Of a stretch of DNA of 64,000 bases, positions 37,364 to 46,639 are shown piece by piece. Both the position numbers and the translations under genes were made by a program. Each line of letters opens with the position of its first letter. The stretch's first letter is position 1. Source of the DNA: Heliocidaris erythrogramma. Taxonomy: Eukaryota > Echinodermata > Echinoidea > Camarodonta > Echinometridae. The stretch is taken from NCBI GenBank assembly GCA_025617745.1, contig CM046853.1, positions 63,497,024 through 63,561,023 of the forward strand. The letters run 5' to 3'. A model generated the notes under the pieces. That model saw only the letters and a list, made by a program, of their open reading frames with translations, searched no databases and was not told where the DNA came from.

Positions 37364-39175
37364 CTACACACTTAGCTGTATGAAATACAGACGATCATAA
37401 CGGGCAAAGGCAAGCATGTGGGGCGCGAGACTTGCCATGCAGCAGTTAGTATAAAGTTGGTGATGGAGATTGAGTTCATTGAATGTCATCTGCTGGATAA
37501 GTGTCGTTCCCTCAAGAGTGTACCTGGTCAACTTCAGCACATCAGATCTACCCCTCACCCTAGCTACTAACACTCTATCTTGGTTGTCTACTGTAGCAAA
37601 CAGGTATTCATTATCATCACTCGCTGTGATGGAGCCACCTACATGATCTTCTCCGTCAAAAACAGTAACTGTGCTAGGTGTAGTGTTACAGGTACTGGTG
37701 ATCAATACACCTGTCTTGGTTACACAGATTTGTATTGGTTTGATATCACCAGTAGGAACTACTCTATGTGGGTTAGGGTTACTACCATGGAAGATATAGA
37801 TCTCTGGATTACCATTGACAGCATAAATATTATCATATTGGTCAACACACAACCTAATGACACTCTTACCTTGCCTGCATCTGTATCTTATACCTGTATT
37901 ATGTGTATCTTGTGTGCTGTATACACTGATTCTACCCCAGTCATGTGATACTACTGATCTACCATCAGCAAGGACTGCAATGTCACACACACGACCTATT
38001 TTATTCTCTAGATGATGTTCCTTCTCACCTGACACAGTGAAGCAATCAGAGCCCTTTTTGTTCCAGCCGTATCCTACCGTCACGGCATCCTGGGATAGAG
38101 CTGACATTCCCCATATGTTATTTGGTGTATCAAACTCTATTACAATGTTCAATGGCTTACTCTGTACTGATACTGGAGCTGCTACCTTTCTACTTGGTTC
38201 CACTTGTTTTGCTTTCTTGTTCTCACCAGCAGCAGTCTTCACACGTTGAATGTTACTTTTTGTTTCCTTCACATCCCGCTCTATATGACCTAGGGCGAGA
38301 AGGTTCTCATCCTCGGGACGAAACCATGAACACTCTGCAGTTTGTTTGAGACGGTCCATTGACTCCTCGTCTATGCTTTTCTCTCTCAATGATTTCTCTA
38401 GATCACTGCATTGCAAATGTTGTGCCTTAATTGTATCTGAATCTAAGTTCTTACCTGTATAACTTCTTAGTTCTACGGCGCACCTGTTTATGTAATCAAT
38501 TACCTTTCTATATTTCGCGATACAACCTTCCACTTGACTTTCTGTGTCCTTCCGAATATGGTCTAACGTCTCTAGTAGTGTTGTTTCATTTTTCTGAAGG
38601 ACTTTGACCCTTTTATCAAATTCATCTTTAATTGCTTTCTCCACATTATTGAAATGACAATGTATGTCAATTTTTTGTTGTTCAGCATTGTTTATAGACT
38701 CTTCAATTTGCGTTTTCTTAGTCTTACTATTCTGAATGAGTGTTTCTGTCTTCTTTCTCAAATACCCTTCAAACTCTTCTTTCTTTTTAAATTTGTGATC
38801 TTTATGATCATTCAAGTAACAAGTGAGGCAGATGAACTCTCCACAATCTTTACAGAAAATGTCTTTGTAAATTTGACTGTGAAATGAACAGAAATTTGAT
38901 GATCGTTTATTTACATCTACATGTAAATTTTCCTGTAGCCCTTTGAGTGAAAAGTTAGGTGTTAGTCCAGAGACGCGATTTCGTCCTAGTTTCGTATTAT
39001 GCCTACAAACTGGGCAGACTATATGATCAATATCATCGTGTTGCTCATCATATGTTTCTAAGCAGCCCTTGCAGAATGTATGTCCACAGCTAAGAAGAGT
39101 AGCATTCTTGAAGACATCTAGACACATAGGACATACCAAACCTTGGAGTTGTTCACCTTCCACCTTGGAAGCCAT
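37364..39175 (-). CDS. TRIM family E3 ubiquitin ligase-like protein
   Basis: A single-exon protein with the tripartite motif, probably a cytosolic ubiquitin ligase. Numbered from an upstream in-frame Met at 39211, the RING finger has C27-x2-C30-x11-C42-x-H44-x2-C47-x2-C50-x15-C66-x2-C69. The B-box type 2 has C108, H111, C120, C123, C128, C131, H136 and H139. A coiled coil follows (about 140-330), then a C-terminal domain of short beta-rich repeats (about 355-615) resembling a propeller of the NHL/TRIM56-like type. I prefer the second Met (39175, 603 residues) because it has an ACCATGG context. Substrate is unknown. The intronless structure fits the expanded invertebrate TRIM sets. No frameshift or stop is seen. 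Confidence 0.9.
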   Translation of the reverse strand: MASKVEGEQLQGLVCPMCLDVFKNATLLSCGHTFCKGCLETYDEQHDDIDHIVCPVCRHNTKLGRNRVSGLTPNFSLKGLQENLHVDVNKRSSNFCSFHSQIYKDIFCKDCGEFICLTCYLNDHKDHKFKKKEEFEGYLRKKTETLIQNSKTKKTQIEESINNAEQQKIDIHCHFNNVEKAIKDEFDKRVKVLQKNETTLLETLDHIRKDTESQVEGCIAKYRKVIDYINRCAVELRSYTGKNLDSDTIKAQHLQCSDLEKSLREKSIDEESMDRLKQTAECSWFRPEDENLLALGHIERDVKETKSNIQRVKTAAGENKKAKQVEPSRKVAAPVSVQSKPLNIVIEFDTPNNIWGMSALSQDAVTVGYGWNKKGSDCFTVSGEKEHHLENKIGRVCDIAVLADGRSVVSHDWGRISVYSTQDTHNTGIRYRCRQGKSVIRLCVDQYDNIYAVNGNPEIYIFHGSNPNPHRVVPTGDIKPIQICVTKTGVLITSTCNTTPSTVTVFDGEDHVGGSITASDDNEYLFATVDNQDRVLVARVRGRSDVLKLTRYTLEGTTLIQQMTFNELNLHHQLYTNCCMASLAPHMLAFARYDRLYFIQLSV

Positions 39176-39211
39176 GGTTCGTCTAGAATAGGGTAATTCT
39201 AAATGGGGCAA

Positions 39212-40330
39212 ATGTAGAAAAAAATCTGATCTATAAAACGGGAATCATCGGCCATAAATCCCCATTTGTGAACCTTTTTTTTCATAATGAAATAAGAACG
39301 CTTGATTTCTTATTGGTGCTGCGAGGGTATCCAAAGCTTTGTCATATCGTTAACACATGCACTGAAAGACGGTCTGGATTGGAATTGACGATCAGTCATT
39401 GGAACAACCCAGGGCATAATACATCACATGCAAGACATGTTGTGTTGAACTGAAGTTTTGCAGGAAGGGGGTTATATTTGTGCCTTTTCAAAATGAGATT
39501 TGTTTAAAGATTTGGTTTTCAGGATTTAACATATTTTCAAGGCAAATTAAAGACTGATACCACTTTGGATATTTGGAACAGACGAATTCAATATTCATAA
39601 CTATGTACGTACTGACAAGACTCAATTATTGAGTTTAAATTGATCAATGTAAAAGGTGCATGGAGACGCTCTAATAGGTTTCAGATTCAGACTTATCAAC
39701 CATTTTCAATCCTATTAACATAATTATACTAAAGTGCATCAATAAAATAAATACAATAACAACGATAACAATGTTTTTTTAATCTGAGTACATAATTATA
39801 TGGCTTTCATCAATATCAGTCACAAACCCTTTGTTTAACCTATAAAATATAGTCGAATATAGCCCTACATATATCTTACACAATGTACACAGTTCCACTT
39901 TTTGCCATGTTCAAACGTTGAAATAATATTTTAAAAGTCAAACATCTCGCGATCCGTGTTTTCGAGATGACCATGTCATTTCAACAACAACAAATGAGAG
40001 AGATACATGTAGATTTGTTTTTAAAATGGTGGATAATTAAGAACACTTGAAAACATTATTGAATATTTCTACTCAGTGGTGTATCTAGGAGGGGGCAGGG
40101 GGCACGTGCCCCGGGTGGCACTTGAAGGGCGCAAAATAACGCAAAGGAGAGAAAGGGGAAAAAAGGTTCATCTGACTCCTGCTGAATATTGCGCCCCCAA
40201 TATAGGATAAAGTGTATAAAACAGCATTTGCAAAGGTTCAACATTTGAAAGAAATCCCAACTTCAGGTCGCCTTGCTGAATTTCTCGACTATTCCTCAAG
40301 GGTTTTCGTTAGTTTTGCTCCCGATTGTAG
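39212..40330. other. Intergenic, no gene seen
   Basis: AT-rich. At about 40074-40140 one end of a hAT-type MITE is visible (CAGTGGTGTATCTAGGAGG). Otherwise nothing recognised. Confidence 0.5.
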
Positions 40331-40751
40331 AAGTGCCAGCTCCGCCGACACCTAGAGAAGCATAGCATACGCGCCGTTTTCAAGTCCGACACCACCATTC
40401 GTAACCAGCTAGTCCACCCAAAGGACCCCACGCTACCCGGCAGACTCGACGGCGTTGTCTACAAGATCCCATGCGGGACTTGCGACAAGGTCTACATCGG
40501 CGAAACAGGCAGACCCGTAAACGAAAGAATGCTAGAACACCGCAGAGATGTCAAGCACCGTCGCGTAGATAGTTCGGCAGTCGCTGAGCATGCTTGGAGC
40601 GCACAGCACCCTCCCAATTGGGATGAGGTAAGTTGCGTAGCGCGGGATAAACACTGGTACACACGGCGTGTTAAAGAAGCTATCCAAATCCGTTTACACC
40701 CCAATAATATCAATAGAGATAACGGCATTGACATCCCGGAGGAATGGCTCC
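40331..40751 (+). pseudogene. Penelope-like retroelement, GIY-YIG endonuclease part
   Basis: An open frame without a 5' start encodes the C-terminal endonuclease of a Penelope-like element. Diagnostic stretches are VVYKIPCGTCDKVYIGETGR, an ERMLEHRRDVK helix and the EHAWSAQH pair of histidines that with CGTC forms the CCHH zinc site typical of this family. The reverse transcriptase part upstream is absent, as is usual for 5'-truncated copies. The frame is cut after the codons for PEEWL by the inserted transposon and resumes in phase at 44601. Confidence 0.88.
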
Positions 40752-40851
40752 CACAGAACTCATAACGTCTTTAGGAGTTCTGTGCACAGAACTCCAAAAG
40801 ACGTAGAAGGCTTGTGCGGGTGCGAAACTATCGCCGTCGCTCGTACGTGGT

Positions 40852-40873
40852 CACGTGATATCCGCCATCTTGG
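40852..40873 (+). promoter_or_regulatory. E-box and YY1-like sites before THAP exon
   Basis: CACGTG (40852-40857) and CCGCCATCTTGG (40862-40873) lie about 90-110 bp before the THAP start codon. The second word matches the known YY1 consensus. Both suggest a promoter for the element's transcript. Function is inferred only. Confidence 0.4.
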
Positions 40874-40961
40874 TTAGTCCTTCAGATAGCGGATCGTCAA
40901 GCGCAATAATTCATTTAACATGTAGATTCTATTCATGAACTTTTGAGTAATTTTCATCGCC

Positions 40962-42453
40962 ATGCCGTTTTGCACGGCATATAACTGTACTAACCGTCAG
41001 AAGAAAGGATGCGGGAAAACTTTCCACAGGTTAGTTGATCTGATTAATTCAGTAATAAGTTATAATTTATGATGTTTTGACAATGTCGACTCCCTTCGTG
41101 ATACTTGGCTTTTTTGTAGTACGTAGTCCCATCTGTTCATTTTACCGTTTTATTTTAATTACTCGCTGCAGTTTTCATGATGTGGTCTTATGAAAATCGC
41201 TCATTGAGTAAAGATAAATAACTTGTTTAATTAAATTAATGAATATTAGCATTTCATACCTTTCTGACATTCCTACAGAATAGTTAAAGAGATCTAAGCA
41301 GCTAATTTAACCATTTTAAGAACAGTAAAAATTGTGACACTGACATGACTGACACTCAGTCATCAGGTCATGACAGTGAAACTTTGTGACAGTTATTTAT
41401 TGACAGTAAAGTTAGACTTAGACTTTAGAGAGAAATTCTAACTCAGTCATGACATGTAACTCTAAGGCCTAGCTAATAGGTAAATCTAAGTTAGTAATTA
41501 ATACTCACAGTGAAGACAGAGTGAGCTGTGTCTGTGATTGTGAAGACTTCGCTTCAGAAGTTCAGTCTACGTCTTCACTCTTCTTCACTTCCATGGCATG
41601 ACTTCCCCGAACTGACATGACTGAAGATGCGATGGTCATGAGATGAGTGACACTGTCATGGCTGTCGTTAGCGCGTTAATTGTCGATTTTCTTAGAAGTA
41701 TGAGTAATATGTGGTGTAATTGTGTTAGTGAGGTTGACCTGAATTCTGATGTTAAAGGGAAATCCAACCTTAATTAATAGCAAGTTGCTTTAAAAGAAAG
41801 AGGAAAAATCAGAGAAGCAGATTGGTGAAAGTTTGAACGAAATCGGACAAGCAATAATGAATAACAAAATGTATTAGGGCCTACTCAGTAGGATCTTTTT
41901 CTTTTATGAGGACCTACATTAACAATATGCTATCGCCAATATATTACTGCCCCGAGGGTAAAAGCGCCTCAAATAAAACTGCAAATTAATGATATTTTTG
42001 TGTACGACAAACGGGAGAGTTGTCCACAAAAAAAAATTTGAGATTTGCATAGATGTAATGATCTCATTTTTCAAACATCCATAACTTTCTTAGTCCTTGT
42101 CCGATTTCTTTCAAACTTTCACCATCCTATTTTTCTTATTTTTCTGCGTTCACACAAATCATCTTATTACCAAGGTTGGATTGCCCTTTAACTTAAAAAG
42201 TAATGTATTGATTAAATTAAATTATTAAACAATTCTTTTATTTCTTTATCAAACATTTCTGATTTTTCTTACAATGTAGTTTGTATTTCCAAAGAGATTC
42301 TTTTCAATTAGGATTAATTCCTAGAAATTAATTGTGATCTTATGTTTTTATTTTTCCACTTTCAGATTTCCAAGAGGTGATAGTTCTCTCCTAAAGAGAT
42401 GGATCGTGAACATGAGAAGAGACAACTATATATATATATATATATATATATAA
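40962..42453 (+). pseudogene. THAP zinc finger, truncated (P-type transposase start)
   Basis: Exon 1 (40962-41029) reads MPFCTAYNCTNRQKKGCGKT followed by FH and ends at CACAG|GTTAGT. Exon 2 starts at 42366 after cactttcag and continues R-FPRGDSSLLKRWIVNMRR. This matches the first half of a THAP domain: N-terminal Met-Pro, C-x4-C zinc pair, FHRFP and the invariant Trp. The intron is phase 2 and holds a MITE. After DNY the frame runs into (TA)12 (42427-42450) and meets TAA at 42451, so the second zinc pair (C..H) is lost. THAP domains are the DNA-binding module of P-element transposases as well as of host THAP proteins. Confidence 0.8.
41756..42187. mobile_element. TTAA-flanked MITE nested in THAP intron
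   Basis: AGGGAAATCCAACC at the left and GGTTGGATTGCCCT at the right are inverted, between TTAA at 41752-41755 and 42188-42191. Same family as 27904-28470. Confidence 0.82.
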
Positions 42454-42570
42454 AGAAACAGTTGAAAACTTTTCATGCATTTTCCATCATCAGACTCTGT
42501 TACTTGATATTTATTTTTTTATTGTAACTGTCTACTTTTGATTAACTTTTCCACTCCCTTCTCATTTCAG

Positions 42571-42957
42571 AATGTCAAACAGCGCAAGCCCCCAATACCA
42601 CGAGATACTACTCAACCACACTCTGCCCTTAAACAGGGTGATGACTCCAATCTTCACATTGTCGAGTGTTCAAATGAGGATCCAGCACGTGATACCTACA
42701 GACAAGAACTCAGTACCCCGATCAAACCCAAGTCCCTTGCAGACAACACTGAATCAATGTATTTACATCCATATGCCAAAGTTACTCGTGCAATTTTATT
42801 TTCATTAATTAAACCAAAGATACTTGATGGAGATACAGTTACATGCATCTGTGATAATCATAAAACAAACAACATAGTGATGGGTACAATGACTTCGTTT
42901 TCTCTCCTTATTATGGGTTACTTTCCAGACATTGTCAAATATTATTCAGTGGAGTGA
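42571..42957 (+). pseudogene. Possible third exon of the P-like element ORF
   Basis: An open frame follows a good acceptor (ttctcatttcag) and begins NVKQRKPPIPRDTTQP, ending with a stop at 42955. A polyadenylation-like AATAAA lies near 43353. I do not recognise the protein. Position after a THAP domain would fit the linker of a transposase, but the first about 15 codons could equally be intron-derived. Confidence 0.4.
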
Positions 42958-44607
42958 AAGGATCATTTGTAATTGAAATGAGCAAGTCCATCATCATATT
43001 CATCTGTTTCTTAAATGATATCGATTAGACTCATAAAATTTGCTTACTAATCAAGAATCTCATATTGGACCAGCATAAAAAAAAAAGGAACACAGAGAAA
43101 GGAGCATTTGAGTCTGGTGGGAAAAATATTGTTTATGATAAAACTGTCTTATACATGTAATAGAGTTCTTAAATTTATAATGAGAGTTTACTGTCTGTAG
43201 CATTTTGCCGGGCTATGGGGGCTTATGTAGCAATGTGACCACTGGCAATATGCACTTACATATAGTAACTATCACATTCATTGCTACTGGTACTAATACA
43301 TGTATTTTGTGTGAAAAATTTGTAACTTGCCAATGCTTTGTCAGTTTCCGCAATAAAACATTATAGTTTTATTGTTCAAAGATTTTGTGAACTTTTGAAT
43401 TATTTTTGGAAAATAAACGTTGAACTTAACTATTAAATTTTTTTTTTCTCGATTCCATAAAATTTAATATAAGATTTGCCTGTAACAGTTGATAAATCTC
43501 CCTACTCCTCTCCTCTTTCTTTTCTCTTTTTTTTCCCAGTTGTGATGTATGTGTACAATGTAAATTTATTTACAAATGTAGTAAGCTTCTCTTTGAGTTT
43601 GTGTAATGCTATGAAGAGTGACATGTGCATTGTGTGTGGGGGGGGGGGGGGGGTGTGTACTGTGACAAGCTTGTGCTTCATTGTTGAGCTACTAGCCTAC
43701 ATGTACATGAGGAAAAATGTCGGTGTGTATTAAGAAAGAGAAGATAAGTTAATAATATTGATTCGAGAGCCGTTAAGCATTTGTTAAACTGGGGGGGGGG
43801 GGGGGGGTGCTAAGCATGTGAACTAGCATATTATTGCAAAGCTGCAGTATTGTGAAATGTATCCACTAAAACAAGTTTATATACGAATTATCATCAAAGA
43901 TAGAGCAGGACATAAACATAACACAGTAGTAGCATGTTGAACAAAACTAAAACTTTGCAAAAAAGCAAATTAAATCAAAAGGAAAATTGTCCAATGTTTA
44001 AAGGCAAATAATATACAGTACTTGAAAAAATACCTTTATATAAATTTATATCGATAACACATTGGACAAAAAATGACAGGTTGTACAACCATATAAGTAA
44101 TATCTTTATTTTTAAATGTTTCGTTTTTGTTTTTTGTTTTTGTTTTGTATGTGATTTGTTTTTGTTTTTTCCAAGGGGGGGGGGGGGGGTGTCAAGAAGG
44201 ATGATTGCGAACAAATGAACTCGGGCTCCGATGTACCTTGAAGGAGAACTACAAAACTTAGTATCTTGGAAACGAAGTGAAATTTAACTCTTGTCTCCTG
44301 AAAGAGAACTAAAATTAAACTGTTACATGTGTTACACATTCAGTTGATGTCATTTATGTAAGGAAAATCAGACTTAAAAATGTTCAAATGATAGACAGAT
44401 GGCCCTTTTGAGAAGATCGAATATAATAGGCATTGTGACGTGCACGATCGGTAAGCTCACTGAAAAGAACGAGGACTAAGCAATATGGCGGCGTGTGCAC
44501 TCGAGCGAATCTTCCAGCGGGTATTTCGAGGATACCGCGATCTGTGCGTTGTGAATGGGTATGAGCCTTCTACGTCTTTTGGAGTTCTGTGGTTCTGTGA
44601 TGGCTCC

Positions 44608-44858
44608 CCACCATCCGCCGACATGCGCCCCCTACCGTTTCCCTCCGTCCGACGTCTGCATTTCGCCCGCCAGTAGCCAGTAGCCCGCCAGCAGCACCGA
44701 CGGGATTTTCCCCGACGTCCGCATCTCGCTCACCGATCACTCAGTCCGCGGCTTCTGATTGGTCGGTTTCACGGACCAATAGCAGCGCGGCGGTTCCGGC
44801 TCCCTCGGATCCGAAACGTAGCTTACGCTATAAAAGGCGTTGTGGCGTGCGCCTGTAA
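44608..44858 (+). pseudogene. Penelope-like element, C-terminal tail
   Basis: In phase with the frame broken at 40751, this part reads PTIRRHAPPTVSLRPTS and a proline/serine-rich tail ending in a basic KRRCGVRL and TAA (44856-44858). WxPTIRRH followed by a low-complexity tail is usual for the end of animal Penelope-like ORFs. Within the same DNA are ATTGG and CCAAT boxes (about 44757, 44778) and CTATAAAAGG (about 44829), which may be the element's promoter. Confidence 0.75.
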
Positions 44859-45112
44859 TCCAGCTACCAGTGGAAGTTATAAACTGATTCAGCGGACCCA
44901 GGTTCGAGACTGAGTCACGTCTTTTGGATGGTGACGTTAAAGGTCGGTCCCAGACGTAAATAATCATATCTGATTGATACACGTCTGTAAAAACCCAATT
45001 ACACACACACACACGATTGTCCACATTGCCTAACGAAGACTAGCAGTTAGCGGTCGAAACGTCGCAACCCTCGTTTGCTCCATCATGTGACAACAGATCA
45101 ACTCATACTCTT
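44859..45112 (+). repeat. SINE-like / Penelope terminal sequence with (AC)n
   Basis: Contains CAGGTTCGAGACTGAG (B-box-like), GATGGTGACGTTAAAGGTCG, an AC microsatellite at about 45001-45014 and then GCGGTCGAAACGTCGC. The last word resembles the conserved core seen in terminal repeats of Penelope-like elements, some of which carry hammerhead ribozymes. The exact element boundary is not clear. Confidence 0.4.
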
Positions 45113-45153
45113 ATTGTACTACCACGATGATCAACATCTTTCGCACTAACTTA

Positions 45154-46447
45154 AGCCCCTATCACACCAAACTCCACGACTGCTACGACCGTCCCGACAA
45201 CGCCGATTCTATAATTTTTGAAACATTTGTATGAGTCGGGGTAGAATCGTGTAAAAATACCCGAATCCCGGTTAAAAAATTATACATTCCCGTTGCTGCC
45301 ACGACTCTCCCCGATTGTGCCACGACTGATTCCCGACAGTCTCGATCCAGCCATGTACCAGCCACGATAGCACCCCGATTATACCCACGACTCTCACGAC
45401 TGAGCCACGCCACAGCCCTGATCTATCACCTTCTCTACCACGTCCGCGCCAAGACCTATAAATACAGCCGATTTGCAAGCAGACCTCACTTTCATTTTGA
45501 CTGGGCCACGACCAATCCGACTGCACCACGACTGAGCCAAGACTGTGCCCCGACTATCCCGACCGCGCCACGTCCTCACGACGTTATAGCCACGATTTCG
45601 ACCTAAAAAGTCGTGACAGCCCTCCCGACCGTTACCGACCCTCCCCGACCCTCACGAACATGCCACGACTAACCCCGATCACGCCACGACCTTCCCGACT
45701 TGGCCACGATAGTACAGTAACTGTACTATCACACCGGGCTTCCCGACCGTGCCACGACAGTCCCGACTCAAAAATATGGAAAATCGGGTGAAAAGTCGTG
45801 GCCAAGTCGGGAAGGTCGTGGCGTGATCGGGGTTAGTCGTGGCATGTTCGTGAGGGTCGGGAACGGTCGGGAGGGCTGTCACGACTTTTTAGGTCGGAGC
45901 TTAATCGGGAAACTCTCACGATTCTAAGAAATCGTGGCTATAACGTCGTGAGGACGTGGCGCGGTCGGGATAGTCGGGGCACAGTCTTGGCTCAGTCGTG
46001 GTGCAGTCGGATTGGTCGTGGCCCAGTCAAAATGAAAGTGAGGTCTGCTTGCAAATCGGCTGTATTTATAGGTCTTGGCGCGGACGTGGTAGAGAAGGTG
46101 ATAGATCGGGGCTGTGGCGTGGCTCAGTCGTGGCGCAATCGGATAGATCGTGGCGCTGTCTTGGCGAGAACGTGGCACAAACGGGTACTGTCGGGACTCA
46201 GTCGTGAGAGTCGTGGGTATAATCGGGGTGCTGTCGTGGCTGGTACATGGCTGGATCGAGACTGTCGGGAATCAGTCGTGGCACAATCGGGAGAGTCGTG
46301 GCAGCAACGGGAATGTATAATTTTTTTAACCCGGATTCGGGTATTTTTACACGATTCTACCCCGACTCATACAAATGTTTCAAAAATTATAGAATCGGCG
46401 TTGTCGGGACGGTCGTAGCAGTCGTGGAGTTTGGTGTGATAGGGGCT
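45154..46447. mobile_element. 1294-bp fold-back element, TTA duplication
   Basis: AGCCCCTATCACACC at the left is inverted at the right as GGTGTGATAGGGGCT, flanked by TTA (45151-45153, 46448-46450), as in PIF/Harbinger-type insertions. The inverted repeat extends through nearly the whole element around a centre near 45790. The arms are built from CCACGACT- and TCCCGAC-like words repeated dozens of times. Frames such as 45948-46418 arise from this repeat and are not genes. Confidence 0.82.
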
Positions 46448-46639
46448 TTAGATAAGTTTAGACACTCGGGGGGGGGGGGGGTAGGGGCGTAACTTCAATG
46501 TTTGCCCCGGTGCCATAATCCCTAGATACGCCACTGTTTCTACTCGTAGATTTTGATGGACTTTGATGCGCTTAGTAATAAATGATCAATTTGACTCTTT
46601 GAAGTAGCTGACGAATGTTTCTGTTGGTATTATAATTGG

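Follow-up and report, generated by a model that had tools for sequence, protein, structure and literature searches.

Organization of the interrupted Penelope-like frame

In the genome of the sea urchin Heliocidaris erythrogramma (assembly GCA_025617745.1), a Penelope-like reading frame is split by a block that holds a transposon assigned here to the P superfamily and, directly beside it, a 33-bp unit (CACAGAACTCATAACGTCTTTAGGAGTTCTGTG) consisting of two ends of the same family placed face to face. The block lies in a 64-kb window (C1:63497024-63561023, where C1 is contig CM046853.1), which is the whole stretch of DNA analysed and the reference for positions given without a contig; genome searches covered 1,064,227,859 bp in 26 contigs. 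A preliminary description made from the letters alone had the frame break after PEEWL at 40751 and resume in phase at 44601, with a perfect duplication of ATGGCTCC around the block, and both are present as described. On the + strand of the whole window ATGGCTCC occurs only at 40744 and 44600, and these two copies enclose, in order, the 33 bp (40752-40784), the 3,807-bp element (40785-44591), and 8 bp of GTTCTGTG. The site is laid out as follows (TSD, target-site duplication).

40331..40751, +: Penelope-like C-terminal frame, upstream part, last residues PEEWL (open reading frame)
40744..40751: left TSD ATGGCTCC of the putative first, now excised, insertion (repeat search)
40752..40784: putative 33-bp scar, to which one end (variant CACAGAACTCATAA) contributes 13-14 nt and the other 19-20 nt (sequence reading)
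40777..40784: left TSD GTTCTGTG of the second element, identical to the last 8 bp of the scar (repeat search, flanks of the element pair)
40785..44591, +: second element, assigned to the P superfamily and internally deleted, 3,807 bp (inverted ends; alignment to locus L083)
40785..40812, +: 28-bp terminal inverted repeat, THAP side, 100% complementary to 44564-44591
44564..44591, -: 28-bp terminal inverted repeat, far side, perfect partner of 40785-40812
44592..44599: right TSD GTTCTGTG of the second element (repeat search, flanks of the element pair)
44600..44607: right TSD ATGGCTCC of the first insertion (repeat search)
44601..44858, +: Penelope-like frame, downstream part, WLPTIRRHAPP... 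(open reading frame; aligned uninterrupted copies)

The preliminary description had proposed to look for an uninterrupted Penelope copy with a single ATGGCTCC. A 15-mer spanning the site has 91 such matches in the genome (control 0; about 2 expected by chance), compared with one interrupted copy. The three of the 91 that were read and aligned share 96-98% identity with the joined flanks across 121-150 bp, and their frame runs on as PEEWLPTIRRHAP. Designation of the frame as GIY-YIG received weak support from a Pfam match below the cut-off (E 0.069).

The element and its ends

The single insertion proposed at first, with CACAGAAC and GTTCTGTG as the ends of one element and ATGGCTCC as its duplication, would account for the perfect direct repeat of ATGGCTCC around the whole block, but offers no reason for the perfect 28-bp ends further in, each flanked by GTTCTGTG, or for an extra 33 bp present on one side only. 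Its boundaries are refuted by those of relatives, as the inner boundaries are identical to the boundaries of other copies, and we give this reading next to no credence. The outer pair was taken for the element's ends because GTTCTGTG forms both the last 8 bp of the 33-bp unit and the outer 8 bp of a terminal repeat. In its place, the sequence is best read as the product of two P-type events, in which ATGGCTCC would belong to an older insertion that left the 33 bp behind. Inside the 28-bp ends, the following features were located (MITE, miniature inverted-repeat transposable element).

40862..40881, +: 20-bp subterminal inverted repeat CCGCCATNTTGNTTAGTCCT, offset 77 (repeat search)
40962..41029, +: THAP exon 1 (MPFCTAYNCTNRQKKGCGKTFHR; exon limits by eye from the sequence)
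41756..42187: MITE in the THAP intron, TTAA on each side (41752-41755, 42188-42191); also in L083
42366..42426, +: THAP exon 2, cut off at a (TA)n deletion junction (comparison with L083)
42571..42760, +: start of the transposase exon, remainder deleted, junction about 42760/42772 (comparison with L083)
44472..44491, -: 20-bp subterminal inverted repeat, other end, offset 100 (repeat search)

The spliced THAP peptide matches the Pfam THAP domain (E 1.6e-7, positions 1-41 of 87), which bears out the intron-split half-domain noted earlier; Pfam gave no match for five other frames of the element, and NCBIfam only matches far below its cut-offs. The window copy and L083 align in three blocks of 96.6-97.4% identity, and L083 positions 6387-5906 and 5574-1911 are missing from the window copy. 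The window copy is an internal deletion derivative of an element of about 7.9 kb. In L083, exon 2, as judged by eye, goes on to encode the remaining half of the THAP domain. This half is absent from the window copy, in which the region of the P-transposase domains is likewise deleted.

The preliminary description arranged the nesting as a Penelope copy, then the P-like element, then the MITE. The element does lie inside the Penelope copy; the MITE was not the last to arrive, since positions 1-1643 of the window element align unbroken across it with L083 8042-6388 (96.6%). L083 therefore also carries the intronic TTAA MITE, which was in the family before the window copy moved. MITE-related sequences occur elsewhere in the window as well.

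The subterminal repeat CCGCCATNTTGNTTAGTCCT is set in by 77 bp at the THAP-side end and by 100 bp at the far end, a difference of 23 bp. It was present with at most one mismatch in 28 of the 32 non-scar ends examined, including the two of the window (34 ends were taken, 2 of them scars); its offset was 76 in one end and 113 in another. The 11-bp core CCGCCATNTTG, which we take to resemble a YY1 site, occurs twice in the 64 kb, both times within the subterminal repeats of the element (0.12 expected), and this count was equalled in 1 of 100 shuffles.

Full-length relatives and family assignment

Other copies sharing the element's ends, a check that the preliminary description had suggested, are numerous: a 21-nt end pattern gave 663 genome matches (control 0), a figure that is not an element count and includes at least 10 scars, namely nine that carry the 21st base of the end and one at L073. 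Among nine comparable element pairs, the window's included, the 8-bp duplications are perfect in seven and match at 7 of 8 bases in two. A profile search of the genome with PF21787 returned 29 matches, nine of them tied at 172.3 bits, and eight of these nine sit in an 869-aa open frame. One match, C1:78463571, falls in L083, where about 7.9 kb lie between ends shared with the window element.

The 869-aa frame of L083 matches PF12017, PF21787, PF21788, and PF21789, all above cut-off. It contains the Tnp_P_element helix-turn-helix, the N-terminal RNase H part, the GTP-binding insertion, the C-terminal RNase H part, and THAP9_C; the full-length copy with P GTP-binding and catalytic domains sought in the preliminary description was thereby found. 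Its best solved-structure match is the Drosophila P transposase 6p5a (E 4.8e-17), and in the alignment DEM, D, and QD..E each face an identical counterpart, the acidic catalytic residues among them. The 7.9-kb element encodes a complete THAP domain, as read by eye, plus a frame with P-transposase domains. Ends of the P superfamily begin with CA, as those of the present element do, and the assignment to this superfamily made earlier from the termini, the duplication, and the THAP exon is upheld by L083; the locus is a new member.

Two other superfamilies were considered and rejected. An 8-bp duplication is common to hAT and P elements, but the Pfam matches of the full-length relative comprise P domains without any hAT domain. 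Kolobok elements bear THAP domains and duplicate TTAA; here the duplications are 8 bp long and varied, and the TTAA pair flanks the intronic MITE.

Several copies are nearly identical: L086 and L087 do not differ across 3,405 bp, and L086, L087, L088, and L090 show zero mismatches over 3.4 kb, with indels only. The other top copies have few mismatches, L091 and L094 more. Because of this near identity over 3.4 kb, the comparison points to very recent movement of the family, whose copies were probably active recently. No viral contig matched the 20-nt end.

Further observations concern the family at large. The THAP-side terminus of L083 is tandemly duplicated, with two copies of the end 43 bp apart (L083 8042-8085; C1:78466896-78466959), and two family elements apparently lie adjacent at C3:8266237-8277159 with 16 bp between their ends. 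Lower-scoring PF21787 matches (L095-L104) suggest several other P families in the genome.

Two probable events at one site

The variant end CACAGAACTCATAAAGACGT was located at 13 places in the genome, with the end's next base following at 3 of them; at C10:34787003, one of the three, two partial transposase matches (C10:34789571, 34789819) are no more than 3 kb away. An untemplated ATA filler in the window scar is unnecessary, given that this variant end can supply 13-14 nt. The 33-bp unit itself recurs identically at C4:28142533 (L107), framed there by a different duplication, CACCGCTC.

We consider it very probable that a P insertion, its excision leaving the 33-bp scar, and the insertion of a second element produced the site, and that the same chemistry made the scars found throughout the genome. 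In the proposed sequence of events, a P-superfamily element would first have inserted at ATGGCTCC in the Penelope copy. The transposase would then have excised it and left on each donor end a 3' tail made of at most about 20 nt of the terminal repeat; the scar at 40752-40784 would have come from end joining of these tails. Finally, the 3.8-kb derivative of the coding element would have inserted at GTTCTGTG, the scar's last 8 bp.

The last two steps are interchangeable, as either order would give the same sequence. Had the second element entered first, with the final 8 bp of the intact first element as its target, excision of the latter would have left an identical site; two such head-to-head junctions exist in the genome, the window's included. 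This order saves no step. We judge it a possible course of events, with less than even chances. That the family favours its own ends as insertion targets was also considered and is not supported, these two being the only exact head-to-head junctions in the genome.

A genome-wide class of putative scars

A search of the whole genome for two facing 10-bp end pieces within a unit of 20-50 bp returned 443 scar-type units (control 0; chance expectation 0.03). The first 50 listed, the window's among them and all on C1 or at the start of C2, were read individually. Perfect 8-bp duplications flank 42 of these 50. A length of 36 bp was shared by 26 of the 50, with the remainder at 24-46 bp; 23 of the 26 correspond to 20+20 nt overlapping at the self-complementary ACGT, and 3 deviate. 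The sequence of this palindromic scar is CACAGAACTCCTAAAGACGTCTTTAGGAGTTCTGTG.

Across 39 independent perfect duplications, with strands pooled, G (56%) and T (44%) stand at the first and second positions, a palindromic preference; this GT....AC pattern resembles the target palindrome of Drosophila P. The empty site of the L007 scar is present in a paralogous repeat, L008, in which CATGTACC occurs once, not twice. Some scars are nested within other ends or scars (L013; C3:6011008). An identical 28-bp scar stands at C10:46914024, 46917149, and 46920234, at a spacing of about 3.1 kb, and was apparently carried along in a tandem array.

Length limit of the retained ends

The limit was examined with a pattern that requires a retained end of 17 nt or longer on one of the two sides and is able to reveal up to 25. 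It gave 113 matches, and 98 of the 100 listed were analysed: the longer retained end measured 17 nt in 6, 18 in 22, 19 in 62, and 20 in 8, and was longer in none. When bases assignable to either side are taken into account, the lower bound of the retained end is 18 in 64 of the 98. Sites of 37-67 bp number 27, of which 21 fall inside the 20-50-bp count, so that about 422 of the 443 units do not exceed 36 bp. The 21st base of the end follows its first 20 in none of the 27 long sites listed.

Units of 24-37 bp could instead be ultra-short non-autonomous elements with two ends, mobilised by the transposase, one of which entered the Penelope copy. They too bear 8-bp duplications, and some units turn up in identical form at more than one site, namely the 36-bp unit, a 28-bp join (34 of 98), a 29-bp join (21 of 98), and nine 36-bp units with an odd base; such recurring joins also fit microhomology. 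The sharp cut-off at 36 bp, beyond which no graded series of deletion derivatives appears up to 67 bp, speaks against such elements, as do the varied joins with one-off insertions among them. The units also lack the 20-bp subterminal repeat found in most non-scar ends, and cuts 18-20 nt inside each end would meet or overlap within 36 bp. On balance, we find this alternative improbable.

Excision as the probable origin of the scars

The favoured account builds on the observed structure of the site, the family, the duplications, and the scar class with its length limit. We infer that the scars were made by transposase excision, since their lengths are cut off, their joins vary, their duplications are usually intact, subterminal sites are missing from them, and Drosophila provides a precedent; on statistical grounds, we further infer tails of 18-20 nt and pairing of their tips. 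The 36-bp product would arise when ACGT tips of such 3' tails anneal and the gaps are filled and ligated. With tails of 20 nt, the ACGT tips would pair (20+20-4 = 36 bp); with 19 nt, CG would pair, and 18-nt tails would be joined directly, in both cases likewise giving 36 bp.

Several observations weigh against this account. Nine scars genome-wide (e.g. C1:3219986) carry the 21st base of the end, A instead of C; all are exactly 36 bp and can be read either as the palindrome with a substitution or as a 21+15 nt join, and the end variant CACAGAACTCCWAAATACGTA that would account for them has no surviving copy. The L073 scar, 29 bp long with a perfect TSD, is readable as keeping 20 to 22 nt. These ten scars are unexplained and run counter to a strict limit of 20, which may be 21. 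For the two commonest asymmetric joins, of 28 and 29 bp, a one-base ambiguity leaves tails of 18 or 19 nt as alternatives. Eight of the 50 scars read have no perfect adjacent TSD: one is the window scar, where the second element separates the two TSD copies, and the other seven match at 7, 7, 6, 5, 5, 5, and 3 of 8 positions. Three pairs among the 50 are mutual copies, so not all scars are independent. Finally, a comparison of the flanks of 30 element-end loci with those of 49 scar loci revealed no locus with the full element in one paralogue and a scar at the same duplication in another.

Penelope-related hosts and neighbouring features

Scars of 36 bp also lie in two other Penelope-related repeats (L005 1501-1536; L008 1501-1536), where they adjoin a part matching window positions 44836-44882 or 44841-44980. 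Because these repeats also hold scars, the Penelope-related host family appears to have received repeated hits. Beyond the Penelope 3' part, a long inverted repeat rich in TCGTGGC/GCCACGA, recognised by eye at 45150-46450, looks like a foldback element. The minus strand carries an unbroken TRIM-like frame of 626 aa at 37364-39244, which matches RING and B-box domains and, weakly, a coiled coil.

Implications

In the sources consulted, the remnants that animal P elements leave are known from genetic work in Drosophila and from assays with plasmids. The present genome offers hundreds of natural products, probably of excision, of one P family, most of those read being framed by TSDs, so that the cut position and repair preference of a THAP9-type transposase become measurable from sequence. 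The open-licence literature searched contained no genome-wide catalogue of P-type excision scars, which is not proof that none exists. The retained ends suggest that a stagger of 17 nt, as in Drosophila, does not hold everywhere. The nearly identical, probably recently active copies provide a family for testing, and specialists would want to test above all the scar class, the favoured 36-bp product, and the limit near 20 nt. The palindrome CACAGAACTCCTAAAGACGTCTTTAGGAGTTCTGTG could serve as a simple annotation signature of past P insertions, events that are easily overlooked.

Comparison with known systems

Drosophila P, like the present family, has internally deleted copies; to our knowledge, it has neither a MITE-bearing intron in the THAP domain nor a THAP9 C-terminal domain, whereas this family has such an intron and a Pfam match to the latter. 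The ends measure 28 bp here and 31 bp in Drosophila P, the retained ends reach 20 nt instead of 17, and a 36-bp scar over a 4-nt palindrome is favoured here. According to the portions of two Drosophila studies used (PMC7776569, PMC2895639), the systems share the 8-bp duplication, terminal inverted repeats of about 30 bp with additional subterminal ones, unequal spacing at the two ends (PMC7776569), a transposase with THAP and GTP-binding domains, and excision that leaves remnants of the ends between both duplications. Excerpts of the former give 3' tails of 17 nt (PMC7776569), so plain joining yields at most 34 bp. In Table 1 of the latter, 14 isolates have their join at a palindromic AT inside the tails, and others had lost most of the tails (PMC2895639). 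By analogy, the AT joins would be the same kind of join as the ACGT joins here, over a weaker palindrome.

The zebrafish element Pdre2 with its transposase zfTHAP9, as far as described in the part of the source used, resembles the family in its THAP9-type transposase, 8-bp duplications, and internally deleted copies (PMC10983969). Its ends are 13 bp and its subterminal repeats 12 bp long, with other sequences; zfTHAP9 excision in S2 cells produced larger flanking deletions (PMC10983969), whereas here both duplications are intact in 42 of 50 scars.

In piggyBac, self-complementary TTAA tips steer repair. With somewhat under even confidence, we suggest that tails ending in ACGT might let the present element direct cellular repair toward a uniform palindromic scar of 36 bp, with both TSDs retained and host DNA spared, thereby combining piggyBac-like tips with a stagger of about 20 instead of 17 nt. 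As the tips lie inside the element here, a defined 36-bp scar would stay instead of the seamless site of piggyBac, whose sites can, in the section of the source used, be repaired without footprints (PMC7351741).

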